Assembly (NCBI RefSeq): GCF_004364635.1
Contig: NZ_SOAX01000006.1
Span: 62,001 to 126,000 of the forward strand
Reading direction: 5' to 3'
Length of the DNA: 64,000 nt
Source: Halospina denitrificans
GTDB taxonomy: Bacteria; Pseudomonadota; Gammaproteobacteria; Pseudomonadales; Oleiphilaceae
Position numbers and translations under genes: made by a program. Below are positions 52,446 through 58,114 of this stretch, piece after piece. The notes below the pieces were generated by a model, which worked only from the letters and a program-made list of their open reading frames with translations, did not search any database and was not told the DNA's origin. Numbering within the stretch: the stretch's first letter is position 1; each line of letters begins with the position of its first letter.

Positions 52446-52796
52446 ATGTTCTATCGAGTGATTATCTTTGCCATCGGACTGCTGCTGATCCTGCTCACCT
52501 TCGGCCTGATGTGGGGTGGGGCGGCCCTTTTCATGCGGAGCATGGGGGACACGGAACGGCTTTTCGAACGCTCCCGCATCATCGCCGTCTGGACCTTTGC
52601 AGGATTTGGGGTCGGACTGCTGTTCATGGGATTCGGCGGGCCCATCCTCGGAACCTTTGCCTTCTTCCGCAGCGCCCGAGGCGTCATGCCCCAGATCCAT
52701 GAAGCCACTGTGCTCCTCTGGGGTTTTTCGGTCGTGCTGGTGAGTTCCGCGTTGGCGGGTGGGCTGCTGTTCGGCGGCCTCTACCTGGTCGCCTGA
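52446..52796 (+). CDS. Small three-helix membrane protein, unknown function
   Basis: 116 residues, almost all hydrophobic: helices at about 4-28, 46-70 and 88-114. The cytoplasmic loop carries MRSMGDTERLFERSRII. No family recognised. No strong ribosome binding site is present before the ATG. Its 3' end overlaps the LysR gene by 16 bases, tail to tail. Codon use and length look like a real gene, but evidence is limited. Confidence 0.65.
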   Translation: MFYRVIIFAIGLLLILLTFGLMWGGAALFMRSMGDTERLFERSRIIAVWTFAGFGVGLLFMGFGGPILGTFAFFRSARGVMPQIHEATVLLWGFSVVLVSSALAGGLLFGGLYLVA

Positions 52797-53686
52797 AGCT
52801 GGCGCAACCGTTCCCGGAACCACATCAGCGCCGGTTCCCGTTCGTACTGGCGGTGCCAGTACAGGTGCACGTCCACATCCGGCATGGTCTCCGGCGCCGC
52901 CATCAGGCAGACATCCAGGTACTGGCTGATGATGCCGGCGTAGGTGGCCGGCATGGTCACCAGCAGATCCGTCTCGGAGGCCACCCGGCAGGCCGCGAAA
53001 TAGTGCTGGCACCGCAGCACGATCTTGCGCCGCTGCCCGCGAGCACTCAGCGCAAAATCCTCCAGCCCCTGGCCCTCCGAACGGGAGGAGACCAGTATGT
53101 GATTCTGGGCCAGATAGTCCTGCATGCTGATTTGTTCCCCCGCCACCGGATGATCCTTCCAAGCCACCACCACCAGCTGATCCTCATGCAGCCGTTCGTG
53201 CGCTGTCTGATCGCTGACCGGCAGCAGGACATCCACCGCGAAATCAAGCTTCCCGGAGGCAAGCTGCTGCTCCATTTCCCGTCGCGGCACCCGCTTACTG
53301 ACCACTTCAATACCCGGATAATTCGCCATGTCCTGCATGAGCGGGGGCAGGAAGGTGGCTTCCAGGACATCACGCAGAGCGATGTTGAAAACTCGGGGTT
53401 GTTGTTCCGGGGCAAAATCATGAAACGAGTTCAGCGCGGCGTGGATTTCGCTCAGGCCGGGGTGGATGGAGTTAGCCAGGCGTTGGGCCAGGGGGGTGGG
53501 GACCATCTTGTTGCCCTGGCGGCGGAAGAGGGGGTCATCGAATTGCTCCCTTAGCCTTGCCAGGGAGTGGCTCACTGCCGGCTGAGTCAGGTGCAGGATT
53601 TCGCTTGCCTTGGTCAGGCTGCTTTCCCGGTAGATCGTGATGAATATGTTCAGGAGGTTCAGGTCCAGGCGGTTGGTTGGTATCAC
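52781..53686 (-). CDS. LysR-family transcriptional regulator
   Basis: 301 residues from the GTG at 53686, the standard LysR length. The open frame runs on to 53848, but those codons read through a large hairpin repeat and are not coding. HTH (about 1-60): LLNIFITIYRESSLTKASEI then HLTQPAVSHSLARLREQF; effector domain to the C-terminus. GAGAGG lies about 10 bases upstream of the GTG. It is divergent from the acyl-CoA dehydrogenase gene, so the usual expectation is that it controls the 54150-57967 operon and itself. A possible LysR box is at 53917-53933. The inducer is unknown. Confidence 0.88.
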   Translation of the reverse strand: MIPTNRLDLNLLNIFITIYRESSLTKASEILHLTQPAVSHSLARLREQFDDPLFRRQGNKMVPTPLAQRLANSIHPGLSEIHAALNSFHDFAPEQQPRVFNIALRDVLEATFLPPLMQDMANYPGIEVVSKRVPRREMEQQLASGKLDFAVDVLLPVSDQTAHERLHEDQLVVVAWKDHPVAGEQISMQDYLAQNHILVSSRSEGQGLEDFALSARGQRRKIVLRCQHYFAACRVASETDLLVTMPATYAGIISQYLDVCLMAAPETMPDVDVHLYWHRQYEREPALMWFRERLRQLQATR

Positions 53687-53725: not shown

Positions 53726-53874
53726 GGGCTGGTCGTGGTGCTGGGGGCCGGGTGTGGTGCAGCTTTCCGGGACACGCCGTGAATACGTCCCTGTAGGCTC
53801 GCTTTCGCCATCCATGGCGAAAGACGGTCCCGGAAAGCTGCACCACACCCGGCCCCCAGCACCACGACCAGCCC
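53726..53874 (-). repeat. Hairpin repeat, copy A (inverted), 48-bp perfect arms
   Basis: Left arm 53726-53773 and right arm 53827-53874 are perfectly complementary over 48 bases; the apical segment 53774-53826 is exactly 53 bases. Read on the minus strand the apex contains GCCATGGATGGCG and TACAGGGACGTATTCACGG; it matches copy C at 39 of 53 positions. Inside the apex a nested hairpin (CTTTCGCCAT with ATGGCGAAAG) forms. On the plus strand the right arm is followed by TTTTCT. It lies between the lysR start and its expected promoter. Confidence 0.9.
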
Positions 53875-53916
53875 TTTTCTACCTTGTGCGGGGAGTCCGG
53901 ACGTGAACTGAATTGG

Positions 53917-53933
53917 TATTAGTGAAACGAATA
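53917..53933. promoter_or_regulatory. Possible LysR-type box
   Basis: TATT-N9-AATA is an inverted repeat containing the T-N11-A pattern of LysR regulator sites. It lies between the divergent lysR (starts 53686) and acyl-CoA dehydrogenase (starts 54150) genes, about where an activator site would be expected. One match of this type is common by chance. Confidence 0.35.
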
Positions 53934-54004
53934 ACGTGGGATAAGAATAATTCAGTGGCCTAATGCAGTCCAGGCTCCTAGACTCGTGAAGTATCAGGCT
54001 AATA

Positions 54005-54115
54005 GGGGATGAGCGGGTGGCCTCTTCCGGGAAGCTCCGGAGCCATGGATGGCGGAGGGCAGCGTACATGGATGTATTCATAGCGGTTCCCGGAAGAGGC
54101 CACCCGCTCCTCCCC
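54005..54115 (+). repeat. Hairpin repeat, copy B
   Basis: Arms 54005-54033 and 54087-54115 pair over 29 bases with one mismatch (54010 against 54110). The apical segment 54034-54086 is 53 bases and is 48/53 identical to copy C. The outer part of the left arm (GATGAGC at 54008-54014) and the last bases before the apex (CGGGAA) are shared with copy C; the middle of the arm is not. It is 34 bases before the acyl-CoA dehydrogenase start. No T-run follows. Confidence 0.9.
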
Positions 54116-54149
54116 GACCCAAACCCAGAGGCAAAACCGGGAGGCTGCC

Positions 54150-55355
54150 ATGGATTTTGAACTCTCCGAGAAGGGCCAGGATTTTTATAATCGGGTCCGG
54201 CAGTTCATGAAAGACGAAATTGAACCCGTGGAACCCGAGTATCTGCGGGAACTGCGCAGCCTCGATAACCCCTGGGTTGTCCTGCCGGTTATCGAAGAAC
54301 TCAAGGCCAAGGCGAAGAGTCAGGGGCTTTGGAACATGTTCCTGCCCAAGAGTGATCTGGGTGCCGGGCTAAGCAATGCTGACTATGCCGCTATTGCGGA
54401 GCAGACCGGGCGCAGCTATATCGCTCCGGAGATCTTCAACTGCAACGCGCCCGATACCGGCAATATGGAAGTGCTGTATTACTACGGCTCCGAGGAGCAG
54501 CAGGAGCGCTGGCTCAAGCCGCTGCTGGCGGGTGAGATCCGTTCCGCCTTCTGCATGACCGAGCCGGACGTGGCGTCCTCCGATGCGACCAATATGTCCG
54601 CCACCGCTAAGGTCGAGGGTGACGAGGTGGTGTTGAACGGGCGTAAGTGGTGGAGTACCGGTATCGGGCATCCGAACTGCCAGGTGCTGATCTTCATGGG
54701 GCTGACCGACCCGGAGGCGAACCGTCACCAGCGCCATTCCATGGTGGTGGTCCCCAAGGATACGCCCGGGGTTAAGGTTGAGCGGATGCTGACCGTCTTC
54801 GGGGACTACGATGCGCCGAGCGGGCATGGCGAGGTGAGCTTCAATAACGTTCGGCTGCCGAAGAGTGCCATCATCACGGCGCCGGGTGCCGGGTTTGAAA
54901 TTGCCCAGGGGCGGCTCGGGCCGGGGCGGGTGCACCATTGCATGCGCGCGATCGGCGCGGCGGAGCGGGCGCTGGAGATCATGATCCAGCGGTCCCTGTC
55001 CCGGGAAGCCTTCGGCAAGCCGCTGGCCAAGCTGGGTGGCAATCCGGATATTATTGCCCGTGCCCGGATGAACATTGAGCAGGCACGGCTGCTGACGCTC
55101 AAGACGGCCTGGCTGCTGGATACCAAGGGTATCGGCGGGGCATTGAGCGAAGTGTCACAGATCAAGGCCGCGATTCCGGAGATGCTGTGCAACATCGTGG
55201 ATCAGGCGATCCAGATGCATGGCGGCGGCGGTGTCAGTGAGGATCACGAGCTGGCGACCATGTATGGCCAGGCCCGCTCCCTGCGTCTCGCGGATGGACC
55301 GGATGAAGTACACCGTGCCATGGTGGCGCGACTGGAACTGGCAAAATATAAATAA
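54150..55355 (+). CDS. Acyl-CoA dehydrogenase, ACAD10/11 and LvaC-like
   Basis: FAD flavoprotein, 401 residues. Blocks: FCMTEPDVASSDATNMSATA, VLNGRKWWSTG, AIQMHGGGGVSEDHELATMY and RLADGPDEVHRAMVARLEL. The latter, with its neighbours (SDR, APH kinase), points to the ACAD11/LvaC branch, which acts on 4-phosphoacyl-CoA and removes phosphate to give an enoyl- or 3-hydroxyacyl-CoA, rather than classical beta-oxidation. That role is inferred. GGAGG is 6 bases before the ATG. First gene of a run of four, divergent from lysR. Confidence 0.92.
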   Translation: MDFELSEKGQDFYNRVRQFMKDEIEPVEPEYLRELRSLDNPWVVLPVIEELKAKAKSQGLWNMFLPKSDLGAGLSNADYAAIAEQTGRSYIAPEIFNCNAPDTGNMEVLYYYGSEEQQERWLKPLLAGEIRSAFCMTEPDVASSDATNMSATAKVEGDEVVLNGRKWWSTGIGHPNCQVLIFMGLTDPEANRHQRHSMVVVPKDTPGVKVERMLTVFGDYDAPSGHGEVSFNNVRLPKSAIITAPGAGFEIAQGRLGPGRVHHCMRAIGAAERALEIMIQRSLSREAFGKPLAKLGGNPDIIARARMNIEQARLLTLKTAWLLDTKGIGGALSEVSQIKAAIPEMLCNIVDQAIQMHGGGGVSEDHELATMYGQARSLRLADGPDEVHRAMVARLELAKYK

Positions 55356-55370
55356 CAGGGGAAACAAGGA

Positions 55371-56186
55371 ATGAGCCAACGGGTTTTCATTACCGGCGGG
55401 GCCAGTGGCCTCGGCCGGGCACTGGCATTGAACTACGCACGCCAGGGGGCGCGGGTCTGCATCGGTGACATCACCCCGGAGCAGGGCGTCGAGACCGAGG
55501 CGGAAATCAACAAGGCAGGCGGTGAAGGCCTCTTCCTGGAGTGCGATGTCCGCCGGATCTCGGATTTCGAGAAAGTGAAGGACCGCCTGGTGAAGGACTG
55601 GGGCGGCGTGGATGTGGTCGTGAACAACGCGGGCGTGGCCTCCGCGGGCTCCATCGAGGACACCACCATTGCCGACTGGGAGTGGATCCTGGACATCAAC
55701 GTCATGGGCGTGGTCCGGGGCTGCAAGGTGTTCACGCCGGTCCTGAAGGAGCAGGGTAGTGGCACCATCGTCAACATCGCCTCCATGGCCGGCCTTATGC
55801 TGGCGCCTCTGATGAACAGCTACAACGTTTCCAAGGCCGGAGTCATCGCGCTTTCCGAAACCATGAACCATGAGTTCATCGGCACCGGCGTGAACGTCTG
55901 CGTGGTCTGCCCGGCCTTCTTCCAGACCAACCTGACCAGCTCCATGCGCTCGAGCATTCCCGGCATACAGAAGAACGTGAACAAGCTGATGCAGCGCTCC
56001 AGCGTCACAGCGGATGACGTCGCAAATGACATCGCCCGCGCGGTGCGCAAGGGCCAGTTCTGGGTGCTGCCGCACAAGACCGAACGGCGGCTCTGGTACA
56101 TCAAGCGCGCCAGCCCGAAGGCTTTTGACTTCCTGCTCGGGCTCGAGAGCAAGCGCTGGATGAAGAAGATGCAGACCCAGAACTGA
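55371..56186 (+). CDS. Short-chain dehydrogenase/reductase
   Basis: 271 residues. NAD-binding TGGASGLGRALALNYARQG, NNAGVAS, catalytic serine in IVNIASMAGLM and YNVSKAG with the Y-x3-K pair. Second gene of the cluster, 15 bases after the dehydrogenase. In the 4-hydroxyacid model it would be the LvaD-like 3-hydroxyacyl-CoA (or acid) dehydrogenase. The C-terminus (LPHKTERRLWYIKRASPKAF) is longer and more basic than in simple SDRs. Confidence 0.92.
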   Translation: MSQRVFITGGASGLGRALALNYARQGARVCIGDITPEQGVETEAEINKAGGEGLFLECDVRRISDFEKVKDRLVKDWGGVDVVVNNAGVASAGSIEDTTIADWEWILDINVMGVVRGCKVFTPVLKEQGSGTIVNIASMAGLMLAPLMNSYNVSKAGVIALSETMNHEFIGTGVNVCVVCPAFFQTNLTSSMRSSIPGIQKNVNKLMQRSSVTADDVANDIARAVRKGQFWVLPHKTERRLWYIKRASPKAFDFLLGLESKRWMKKMQTQN

Positions 56187-56197
56187 AAGGTGGAATC

Positions 56198-57262
56198 ATG
56201 ACCCTTATTGATCAGCCCACGGACATCCGGGAAGGCGAGGCGCTGGACCCGGCGGTTGTCGACGGCTTCATGAAAGAGAAGCTGCCGGAACTCAGTGGCG
56301 AGCCCGTGATCCGCCAGTACCCGGGCGGCGCCTCGAACCTGACCTACCAGATCGACTACGGTGATCGCTCCTTTGTGCTGCGGCGTCCGCCCTTCGGTCA
56401 CAAGGCCAAGTCCGCCCACGACATGCTGCGCGAAGCGCGCATCATGAGCGCGCTGAAGCCGGTGTATCCCTACGTGCCCAACATCATCGCCATCTGCGAT
56501 GACCACAGCGTGCTGGGGGATGATTTCTACGTGATGGAGCGCCTGGAAGGCATCATCCTGCGCCAGGATTTTCCCGAGGGTTTCGAGCTGAGTGAGTCGG
56601 ATACCAACAAGCTCTGCAAAAACGTTGTCGACAAGCTGGTGGACCTGCACCGCGTGGATTACCAGTCCGCCGGCCTCGACCAGATCGGCAAGGGCGCAGG
56701 TTACGTCAAGCGCCAGATCGACGGCTGGAGCGACCGTTTCCGCAAGGCGCGTACCGAGGACGTGGCGGACTTCGAATCCGTGATGGCCTGGCTGCAGGAG
56801 AAAATGCCGGAGGATGTGGCCACCTGCATCATCCACAACGACTTCCGCTTCGATAACGTCGTCCTCAACCCGGACAACCCCTTCGAAGTGATCGGCATCC
56901 TGGACTGGGAAATGGCCACCTTGGGCGACCCGCTCATGGACCTGGGCAACAGCCTCGCGTACTGGGTCCAGGCCGACGACGACCAGTTCTTCCAGATGCT
57001 GCGCCGCCAGCCCACGCACCGCCCAGGCATGATGACCCGCGACGAGGTCGTGGCCTACTACATGGAGCGCTCTGGCTACCACGCCGAGAACTTCGACTTC
57101 TACGAAGTCTACGGCCTCTTCCGCCTGGCCGGCATCGTGCAGCAGATCTACTACCGCTACTACCACGGCCAGACCACGGACAAGCGCTTCGCCGGCTTCG
57201 GCCAGGCCGCGAACTACCTCGAACAGCGCTGCAAGCGCCTGATCGACCAGAGCAGCCTCTAG
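56198..57262 (+). CDS. APH-family phosphotransferase, LvaA/ACAD10-like kinase
   Basis: 354 residues of the aminoglycoside/choline-kinase-like fold. ATP-binding lobe GGASNLTYQIDYGDRSFVLR; catalytic Brenner motif CIIHNDFRFDNVVLNPDNP; metal-binding ILDWEMATLGDPLMDLGN. By context it is a candidate 4-hydroxyacyl-CoA kinase, the step that puts phosphate on the 4-hydroxyl before the dehydrogenase acts. It lies 11 bases after the SDR gene. An antibiotic-modifying role is unlikely given the neighbours. Confidence 0.9.
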   Translation: MTLIDQPTDIREGEALDPAVVDGFMKEKLPELSGEPVIRQYPGGASNLTYQIDYGDRSFVLRRPPFGHKAKSAHDMLREARIMSALKPVYPYVPNIIAICDDHSVLGDDFYVMERLEGIILRQDFPEGFELSESDTNKLCKNVVDKLVDLHRVDYQSAGLDQIGKGAGYVKRQIDGWSDRFRKARTEDVADFESVMAWLQEKMPEDVATCIIHNDFRFDNVVLNPDNPFEVIGILDWEMATLGDPLMDLGNSLAYWVQADDDQFFQMLRRQPTHRPGMMTRDEVVAYYMERSGYHAENFDFYEVYGLFRLAGIVQQIYYRYYHGQTTDKRFAGFGQAANYLEQRCKRLIDQSSL

Positions 57263-57274
57263 CGGAGCGGACCC

Positions 57275-57967
57275 ATGGCAACCCTGCACCTGATCCGCCA
57301 CGGCCAGGCCAGCTTCGGCGCCTCCGACTACGACCGACTCTCACCCAAGGGGTGGGAGCAGGGCCGAGTCCTCGGCCGCTGGCTGGCCCGCCACACAACG
57401 CCGGACCAGATCATTGGCGGCGAACTCCGCCGCCACCGCGAAACCATCGACGCCATGACCGAAGGCTACGGCGACGGACTCCCCGAACCCGGCATCCACC
57501 CCGGACTCAACGAATTCGACCACCTGTCCGTCCTCGAAGCCTACCGCCCCGGCTGGGCCAACCCGGATGTCATGACCCGTGAACTGGCCAAAACCGACGA
57601 CCCCAGAAAGGCCTTCCAGAAAGCCTTCACCGAAGCCATCACCCGCTGGGTCAGCGGCCACAACGACGCCGACTACCCCGAACCCTGGCGCGACTTCCGC
57701 GACCGGGTCACCAAGGGCCTGGACGACATCATCCACGACGCCGGCGACGCCAAAGACATCTACGCCATCACCTCCGGCGGCCCCATCAGCGTCATCGCCC
57801 AGTCCCTGCTCGACCTGGACGACCGCCGCGCCCTGAAACTCAACGAAGTCCTGGCCAACGCCAGTATTTCACGGGTCCTGTTCAGCGGCAGCCGTCGCAG
57901 CCTGGCGGTTTTCAACAGTTACGGTCATCTGGAAGGTGAGGATCCTGGCTTGGTGACCTACCGATGA
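57275..57967 (+). CDS. Histidine phosphatase family protein (phosphoglycerate-mutase-like)
   Basis: 230 residues. The RHG motif is LIRHGQASFG near the N-terminus; the second catalytic histidine expected in this family is less clear (ITSGGPISVIAQSLLDLDD occupies the position, with no obvious H), so activity is uncertain. It is 12 bases after the kinase gene and could clear a phospho-acid by-product or regulate the pathway; that is inferred. Codons end in C almost everywhere, more so than in most of the window. Confidence 0.85.
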   Translation: MATLHLIRHGQASFGASDYDRLSPKGWEQGRVLGRWLARHTTPDQIIGGELRRHRETIDAMTEGYGDGLPEPGIHPGLNEFDHLSVLEAYRPGWANPDVMTRELAKTDDPRKAFQKAFTEAITRWVSGHNDADYPEPWRDFRDRVTKGLDDIIHDAGDAKDIYAITSGGPISVIAQSLLDLDDRRALKLNEVLANASISRVLFSGSRRSLAVFNSYGHLEGEDPGLVTYR

Positions 57968-58005
57968 TTTCGGCGAACGAATAATTCACAGGAAGCACGG
58001 GATGA

Positions 58006-58114
58006 GCAGGGATTGGGGCCCCTCAAACGGGAAGCTCCGGAGCCATGGATGGCGGAGGGCAGCGTACAGGGACGTATTTACAGCGATTCCCGTTTGAGGG
58101 GCCCCAATCCCTGC
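58006..58114 (+). repeat. Hairpin repeat, copy C
   Basis: Arms 58006-58033 and 58087-58114 are perfectly complementary over 28 bases; apical segment 58034-58086 is 53 bases, 48/53 identical to copy B and 39/53 to copy A. The bases GATGAGC (58001-58007) match copy B; the arm centre does not. It lies between the histidine phosphatase and the second SDR gene. No T-run follows the right arm. Confidence 0.9.

Follow-up and report, generated by a model that had tools for sequence, protein, structure and literature searches.

Three long hairpins in a 64,000-nucleotide stretch of Halospina denitrificans DNA (contig NZ_SOAX01000006.1, positions 62,001 to 126,000; the whole stretch is called the window here) are members of a repeat family. 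Each hairpin consists of a long stem and an apex that carries two smaller hairpins, P1 and P2, with GGA in their loops. Judged from sequence, the hairpins are most likely scattered CsrA-binding RNAs of the TwoAYGGAY kind. We consider it fairly probable that they represent a dispersed structured RNA element with paired CsrA/RsmA sites. The strand that carries GGA is, in its folded form, probably the target of selection.

The count of imperfect pairs in the stems separates selection on a folded strand from maintenance of a DNA palindrome and requires nothing but sequence. A G·U pair on one strand is an A·C mismatch on the other, so that DNA-level processes should yield equal counts. On the GGA strand of 256 distinct hairpins, G·U occurs 64 times and A·C 10 times (binomial p = 9e-11). 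After collapse to 156 hairpins (stems less than 75% alike) the counts are 46 versus 9 (p = 4e-7), and all six groups are biased toward G·U. Most of the signal derives from named loci (39 versus 5). The model itself contributed 20 of the 256 hairpins (labeled 'class'); without them there are 58 G·U and 9 A·C. All hairpins of this set were required to have ANGGAN loops; the set thus bears on the stems and not on loop conservation. RNA would be the simplest reading of the strand bias, and single-stranded DNA of the same strand would be the alternative.

The helices of the apex point in the same direction. An earlier sequence-only reading of the window had proposed selection for a folded nucleic acid, and this is supported: all four modeled helices contain at least one pair that is changed on both sides, and the excess of G·U in the stems lies on one strand. 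In a first alignment, made from 35 diverse copies, both partners have changed in 26 of 33 pairs, with a covariation score of 0.699 (0.166 after shuffling, at most 0.135 after sliding). A second alignment gives 0.527 compared to 0.128. It comprises 42 matches in 38 distinct rows, one of which is the reverse reading of another element. The window aside, its loci were selected on synteny or on resemblance to one copy, not on a loop pattern; it leans to the structure because the rows were aligned to the model. The P1 loop is ANGGA in all 41 complete cases of this alignment and ATGGAT in 35 of them, while the closing helix varies (GCC/GGC, CGC/GCG, GGC/GCC). Likewise, simple P2 hexaloops conform to ANGGAY in 37 of 38 cases (the exception is ACAGAC; two copies have long insertions) and are kept while their closing helix varies (TAC/GTA, TCC/GGA, CCC/GGG).

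The hairpins of the window (copies A, B and C) are present at the positions and with the arms assigned to them previously, and the gap between the arms is exactly 53 nt in each. The apex identities of 48/53 (B and C) and 39/53 (A and C) agree with a count by hand. Compared to dinucleotide shuffles, the z-scores of copies A, B and C are -17.4, -9.0 and -9.3 as DNA, which excludes chance; the corresponding values for RNA folding are -16.4, -7.2 and -9.3. A nested hairpin is present in each apex, as had been described, but its 3-base bulge in copies B and C can instead be read from the sequence as a 3x3 GGA/GGA internal loop.

From the outside inward, the family shows flanks, an outer stem, an inner stem near CTTTCCGGGAA, P1 and P2. 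P1 has the hexaloop ATGGAT, to which many copies add the GGA/GGA internal loop. P2 has a hexaloop ANGGAY within a short GC[CTG]/[GA]GC helix, the third pair of which is often unformed. Both hexaloops are ANGGAY closed by C-G, and the GGA starts of the two loops are 23 nt apart. Stems range from 21 to 48 bp with 29 bp as the commonest length (24 of 75). The stems, whose centers had been taken as unrelated, vary freely in their outer part only; in 72 copies the ~11 bp next to the apex resemble one another (CTTTCCGGGAA), and stem positions 16 and 17 are each G in 71 of these. The flanks are weakly conserved: GCAC lies no more than 12 nt from the 3' foot in 31 of 52 copies, compared to 1 of 52 for a control stretch 14–25 nt upstream of the 5' foot. 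Throughout the genome complementarity is kept while the stem sequence differs per locus, and neither identical stems nor unpaired copies are found.

The genome (3.3 Mb, 16 contigs) contains at least 80 copies. This number comprises 75 copies with arms and four with a long apex (arms of 27–42 bp with at most one mismatch) from 88 contexts, and one copy from a later inverted-repeat search; nine further motif matches in these contexts were left out. A pattern search of the genome (up to two mismatches) gave 133 matches versus 8 with the reversed control. An inverted-repeat search that is blind to the apex, applied to the window and 31 stretches from four species, returned 28 repeats, 24 of which are family members. 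Of the remaining four, one merges two members of the family into one repeat, and the other three represent a single unrelated orthologous repeat. The latter is present in three Halovibrio relatives (L225:11982-12206, L227:10410-10628, L228:10051-10269) and has 26-bp arms, cagtcccgga..caccgggttccc, with 167–173 nt between them. Among 370 sampled gammaproteobacterial genomes (up to 11 candidates scored per genome), 72 have a family match at E ≤ 1e-4.

The long-apex variant (131–135 nt) has a multi-hairpin block inserted in the P2 loop. In Halovibrio, long-apex copies carry extra GGA loops, e.g. TTTAC-ACGGAG-GTAAA, and a locus with a long apex may have a short one in another species.

The candidate ligand is suggested by the loops. 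PMC7652899 gives RUACARGGAUGU, its GGA placed in a hairpin loop, as the CsrA consensus from systematic evolution of ligands by exponential enrichment (SELEX) and states that a CsrA dimer can bridge sites that are 10–63 nt apart. The apex has two ANGGA hairpin-loop sites with a spacing within that published range. P2 reads (G)TAC-ANGGAY-GTA, so that copies with GTACAGGGATGT match the consensus letter for letter. H. denitrificans has one csrA gene. Among the sampled genomes, csrA is found in 71 of 72 that bear the element and in 253 of the 298 others (Fisher p = 5e-4); the 46 genomes counted as lacking csrA are those absent from the list of csrA matches.

On this basis, a transcript of the GGA strand would fold into a long locus-specific stem that holds up two ANGGAY hairpins, and one CsrA dimer could bridge the pair of loops. 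Copies would lie between genes or in untranslated regions, 3' as well as 5'. Those read in the right sense may tether or titrate CsrA and thereby affect either that transcript or the pool of free CsrA. After the spread of the element, loops and pairing would be kept and the stem sequence would drift, mismatches being corrected or counter-selected; at times the apex would flip or be exchanged between the inverted arms. Both CsrA binding and its effect are putative. The proposal predicts that CsrA binds the apex with high, GGA-dependent affinity. A bolder version is tentative: a mobile RNA element may have distributed dozens of two-site docking hairpins with high affinity for CsrA over the genome, so that general transcription of host untranslated regions rather than a dedicated sponge gene would set the free CsrA pool. 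The stem would then be an insulating rod of free sequence and the tip a cassette that can flip or swap between copies.

The orientation of the hairpins to genes gives a mixed picture. In H. denitrificans, 30 copies between co-directional genes are in sense and 15 in antisense direction (p = 0.036). The analysis of other genomes covers 78 of 104 contexts; those excluded lie too close to an end, have short stems or lack called genes. The gene calls in these genomes are rough and orthologs were not collapsed; at one orthologous Marinobacter locus, L146 was assigned the opposite strand to its orthologs L124, L150 and L183. A strict mRNA leader on the sense strand is not supported by the orientation counts.

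Several observations weigh against a CsrA-binding RNA. In the H. denitrificans genome alone, the strand bias is not significant (G·U 9, A·C 2, p = 0.065). G·U accounts for 0.9% of the stem pairs, which is low for an RNA helix; probably some DNA-level correction acts too. Single-sequence RNA folds sometimes draw P2 otherwise than modeled, as in copy B, where another pairing results for this region. The association with csrA is confounded by phylogeny and genome reduction, and one 98%-complete genome (G236) with eight element matches has no csrA match, which is either an assembly gap or a true exception. The preference for the sense strand is absent from the other genomes (21 sense, 20 antisense), and the pooled counts are 51 versus 35 (p = 0.11). 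Inverted apices occur in one of ten ortholog pairs in Marinobacter (L287/L299) and, between species, at two of five shared Halovibrio loci. Furthermore, every tested copy scores below the Rfam cutoff for TwoAYGGAY.

The strongest alternative, which we regard as unlikely, is a hairpin of single-stranded DNA. The family would be a mobile, non-autonomous element, and a strand-specific (HUH-type) transposase would bind its top strand, as with REP (repetitive extragenic palindromic) elements or IS200-family ends; the loops would be contacts for mobility and their likeness to CsrA sites convergent. HUH enzymes act on one strand, and the strand bias fits such an action too. High copy number and intergenic sites are consistent with this explanation, as is the presence of both occupied and empty orthologous sites. 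Of 15 H. denitrificans loci compared to three relatives, 11 can be placed in a short spacer; at five of these one or more relatives also have a hairpin, and at six none does. The six hairpin-free sites could be gains in H. denitrificans or losses in the relatives. At one locus, one relative keeps only a short palindrome and another a single arm; both are read as deletion products.

The stem common to many copies in Stenotrophomonas maltophilia also favors a mobile DNA hairpin. In strain SJTL3 (G058), 29 of 40 scored matches (from 125 candidates) align over the whole 93-nt query including the stem and 11 align partly. Among 20 loci (L243-L262), mostly top-ranked, 19 share a 25-bp stem with at most 2 substitutions and one differs. 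Thus, a large subfamily spread together with its stem in this species. The former expectation that transposon-like spread gives equal stems agrees in part with the S. maltophilia set but not with H. denitrificans, where the stems differ at every locus. In view of the shared stems, age accounts better than a special copying mechanism for the different stems elsewhere, and age together with kept pairing explains most of the stem diversity. The flanks of the SJTL3 copies are partly conserved, and other palindromic repeats are found nearby.

Close pairs (up to 500 bp apart) are arranged head-to-head (- then +) in 24 of 26 distinct cases, with spacers of 39–366 nt, and occur in Halovibrio, Marinobacter, Stenotrophomonas and others. 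No shared promoter is obvious by eye in 21 of these spacers. REP dimers have the same arrangement according to PMC3733652, which also describes REPs as having stems of 5–13 bp and a GTAG or CGTC tag. The hairpins differ from this description: the stems are longer (21–48 bp), and neither tag is prominent by eye at the stem feet; GTAG is found inside the stem in a few copies (L085, L105, L181). Moreover, two ANGGAY loops with C-G closure fit CsrA sites in detail, which argues against this alternative.

It is improbable that the hairpins are functionless palindromes that exist at the DNA level only, with arms equalized by template switching at the replication fork and apices alike through kinship alone. 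The stems are nearly all Watson-Crick (2322 of 2341 pairs), which, taken alone, would suggest DNA-level upkeep. The apex can flip because the arms are inverted, and the internally shortened palindrome in one relative also agrees with such processes. The strand test disfavors this explanation, which expects equal numbers of G·U and A·C. In addition, the loops stay constant although the helices around them covary, and hairpins persist at the same loci in species that are about 80–90% identical. Two Marinobacter genomes have seven matched locus pairs with ten element pairs (20 loci). At most of these the two stems resemble each other and have changed on both arms, at least one pair being largely different; the orientation is the same in nine of ten pairs, and one pair combines a short with a long apex.

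A mechanism that copies the local flank into a mirror at each insertion, in which case the target would supply the stem, had been suggested to account for the stems and is the least credible explanation. The outer stems of paralogs in H. denitrificans (72 copies, gap 53–54, stems of at least 26 bp) lack a genealogical signal, with a mean identity of 0.465 that equals the column-shuffle null (0.465) and a correlation with apex identity of rho = 0.01, and an 11-mer of an arm is present at one empty site. However, of six orthologous empty sites only one has the H. denitrificans (G000) arms as its best match among 73 arms, and the resemblance of arms to their own flanks is nothing unusual (median rank 0.70, n = 72). 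In addition, a stem is common to many S. maltophilia copies, and orthologous Marinobacter stems drift in step.

A recent spread of apex haplotypes without their stems is not claimed. There are 12 identical apex pairs versus 0.02 with shuffled columns, but 7.0 are expected with half-blocks shuffled (P = 0.03); for the 54-nt apex type the numbers are 2 observed and 2.0 expected with half-blocks shuffled. Carriage by plasmids or phages is not supported: one Marinobacter query has no match in either the plasmid or the phage collection. A Pectobacterium query has a matching place in 5 of 5,426 E. coli genomes. In wastewater E. coli (L212-L214, plasmids and chromosome), the copy lies beside a threonine ammonia-lyase/alcohol dehydrogenase gene pair in the three examined, among insertion sequence (IS) elements.

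In the window, copy A is situated upstream of a LysR-type gene (52781-53686, -) and in the sense of that gene. Copy B ends 34 bp ahead of an acyl-CoA dehydrogenase (ACAD)-like gene that starts at 54150 (+), again in the gene's sense. Copy C lies between a phosphoglycerate-mutase-like gene (ending at 57967) and a short-chain dehydrogenase/reductase (SDR) gene (58186, +). The names of these neighbors were read from their translations rather than obtained by a family search. The spacer between copies A and B is a putative divergent promoter region of the LysR and ACAD genes. A block GATAATTCAGT.G.C.TA.. at about 53940-53990 in this spacer is conserved in three relatives and is perhaps a LysR operator and promoter. 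A promoter scan of the window region found one promoter-like site versus 1.0 expected. Intrinsic terminators were considered and rejected, as inspection by eye shows no T-run after the stems and a consensus scan of the window region, which allows loops of 3–8 only, gave 3 sites versus 3.4 in shuffles, none of them at the hairpins.

Table. Positions of the hairpins and related features (coordinates of the window unless preceded by a locus number).
Feature	Position	Strand	Description	Basis
Copy A, whole hairpin	53726..53874	-	48-bp perfect stem, 53-nt apex	
Copy A, arms	53726-53773/53827-53874		48 bp, 100% paired, gap 53	
Copy A, hairpin P1	53802..53823	-	CTTTCGCC-ATGGAT-GGCGAAAG, hexaloop 53810-53815	sequence; model R1 match 103.1 bits
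Copy A, hairpin P2	53784..53795	-	TAC-AGGGAC-GTA, hexaloop 53787-53792	sequence and model R1
A/B spacer	53875..54004	.	130 bp, GC 0.45 versus 0.62 in its locus; head-to-head pair	
Copy B, whole hairpin	54005..54115	+	29-bp stem (one mismatch), 53-nt apex	model R1, 93.3 bits
Copy B, arms	54005-54033/54087-54115		29 bp, one mismatch, gap 53	
Copy B, hairpin P1	54035..54060	+	GGA/GGA 3x3 internal loop, hexaloop ATGGAT 54045-54050	sequence, RNA fold
Copy B, hairpin P2	54065..54076	+	TAC-ATGGAT-GTA, hexaloop 54068-54073	sequence and model R1
Copy C, whole hairpin	58006..58114	+	28-bp perfect stem, 53-nt apex	model R1, 91.8 bits
Copy C, arms	58006-58033/58087-58114		28 bp, 100% paired, gap 53	
Copy C, hairpin P1	58035..58060	+	GGA/GGA internal loop, hexaloop ATGGAT 58045-58050	sequence, RNA fold
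Copy C, hairpin P2	58065..58076	+	TAC-AGGGAC-GTA, hexaloop 58068-58073	sequence and model R1
Long-apex examples	L099:4939-5129; L223:1440-1629; L225:6634-6806; L295 near 1151; H. denitrificans L043, L053, L058, L061			
Head-to-head pairs	window 53726-54115; L064, L076, L085, L031, L298, L259, L149, L177, L180, L139, L141, L158, others			

The closest known relative is the TwoAYGGAY RNA (Rfam RF01731, clan CL00106). PMC2864571 lists it as a probable RNA found in human gut, gammaproteobacterial and Clostridiales sequences, and PMC4333381 predicts that it binds CsrA. Both have a long external stem around two hairpins; the loops of the element resemble AYGGAY but do not always match it. The poorly conserved external stem, tandem G·A in a stem and predicted CsrA binding are shared as well. 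Tandem G·A is present as GGA/GGA or GA/GA in P1 of copies B, C and many others, while copy A is fully paired. Copy B has two AYGGAY loops (ATGGAT, ATGGAT); copies A and C combine ATGGAT with AGGGAC, in which the second position is R and not Y. The element differs from TwoAYGGAY in that its second loop is often ARGGAY and its external stem is longer and exactly paired.

The RF01731 scores of the copies are 23.0 (copy C), 31.1, 32.0 and 34.2 bits with a cutoff of 43. In the window there is no RF01731 match at gathering level, and the genome has one reported match (34.2 bits, E = 0.0017; 7 candidates scored). Because these scores are below the cutoff, the copies are called a new variant of the TwoAYGGAY kind and not a certified member. 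Conversely, model R1 applied to eight loci of top RF01731 matches gave at best 24.3 bits, with five matches up to E = 1. RF01731 itself has matches in 28 of 370 genomes at E ≤ 0.01, with 14 above the cutoff and at least seven matches in each of six genomes. Over-threshold matches are multi-copy in several gammaproteobacterial genomes (L304-L309, L311), and several of them have long near-perfect outer stems by eye. Many Rfam matches come from microRNA precursor models, which fit long hairpins, often on both strands, and were disregarded; some of them outscore TwoAYGGAY in the window.

The sponge RNAs CsrB, RsmX, RsmY and RsmZ present, like the element, GGA in hairpin loops, which in these RNAs bind CsrA/RsmA; the long-apex variant carries further GGA hairpins in Halovibrio. 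The sponge RNAs are encoded by one or few dedicated genes with many sites, whereas an ordinary copy of the element has two sites, many copies exist and no promoter of its own is seen. No match to an rsm or csr family was found inside the hairpins. A weak rsmX match (28.2 bits, cutoff 56) lies at L223:1641-1728 on the other strand, adjoining a long-apex hairpin.

REPs, bacterial interspersed mosaic elements (BIMEs) and other palindromic repeats resemble the family in being intergenic, multi-copy and palindromic, with close pairs mostly head-to-head. They differ from it in that the element combines locus-specific stems of 21–48 bp with a conserved structured apex, and it does not qualify as a REP. 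Hairpin repeats like miniature inverted-repeat transposable elements (MITEs) share the feature of a common stem with 29 of 40 scored S. maltophilia matches, but not with the H. denitrificans copies, which differ in stem at every locus; nor could a target-site duplication be established at the empty sites. Among the listed matches of searches in the open-licence PMC literature, none describes these hairpins as a genome-wide repeat. Compared to these systems, the element most closely resembles TwoAYGGAY. The proposed assignment would tie a family present in roughly one in five of the sampled gammaproteobacterial genomes to a global regulator and would broaden TwoAYGGAY to include high-copy elements of distinctive design.

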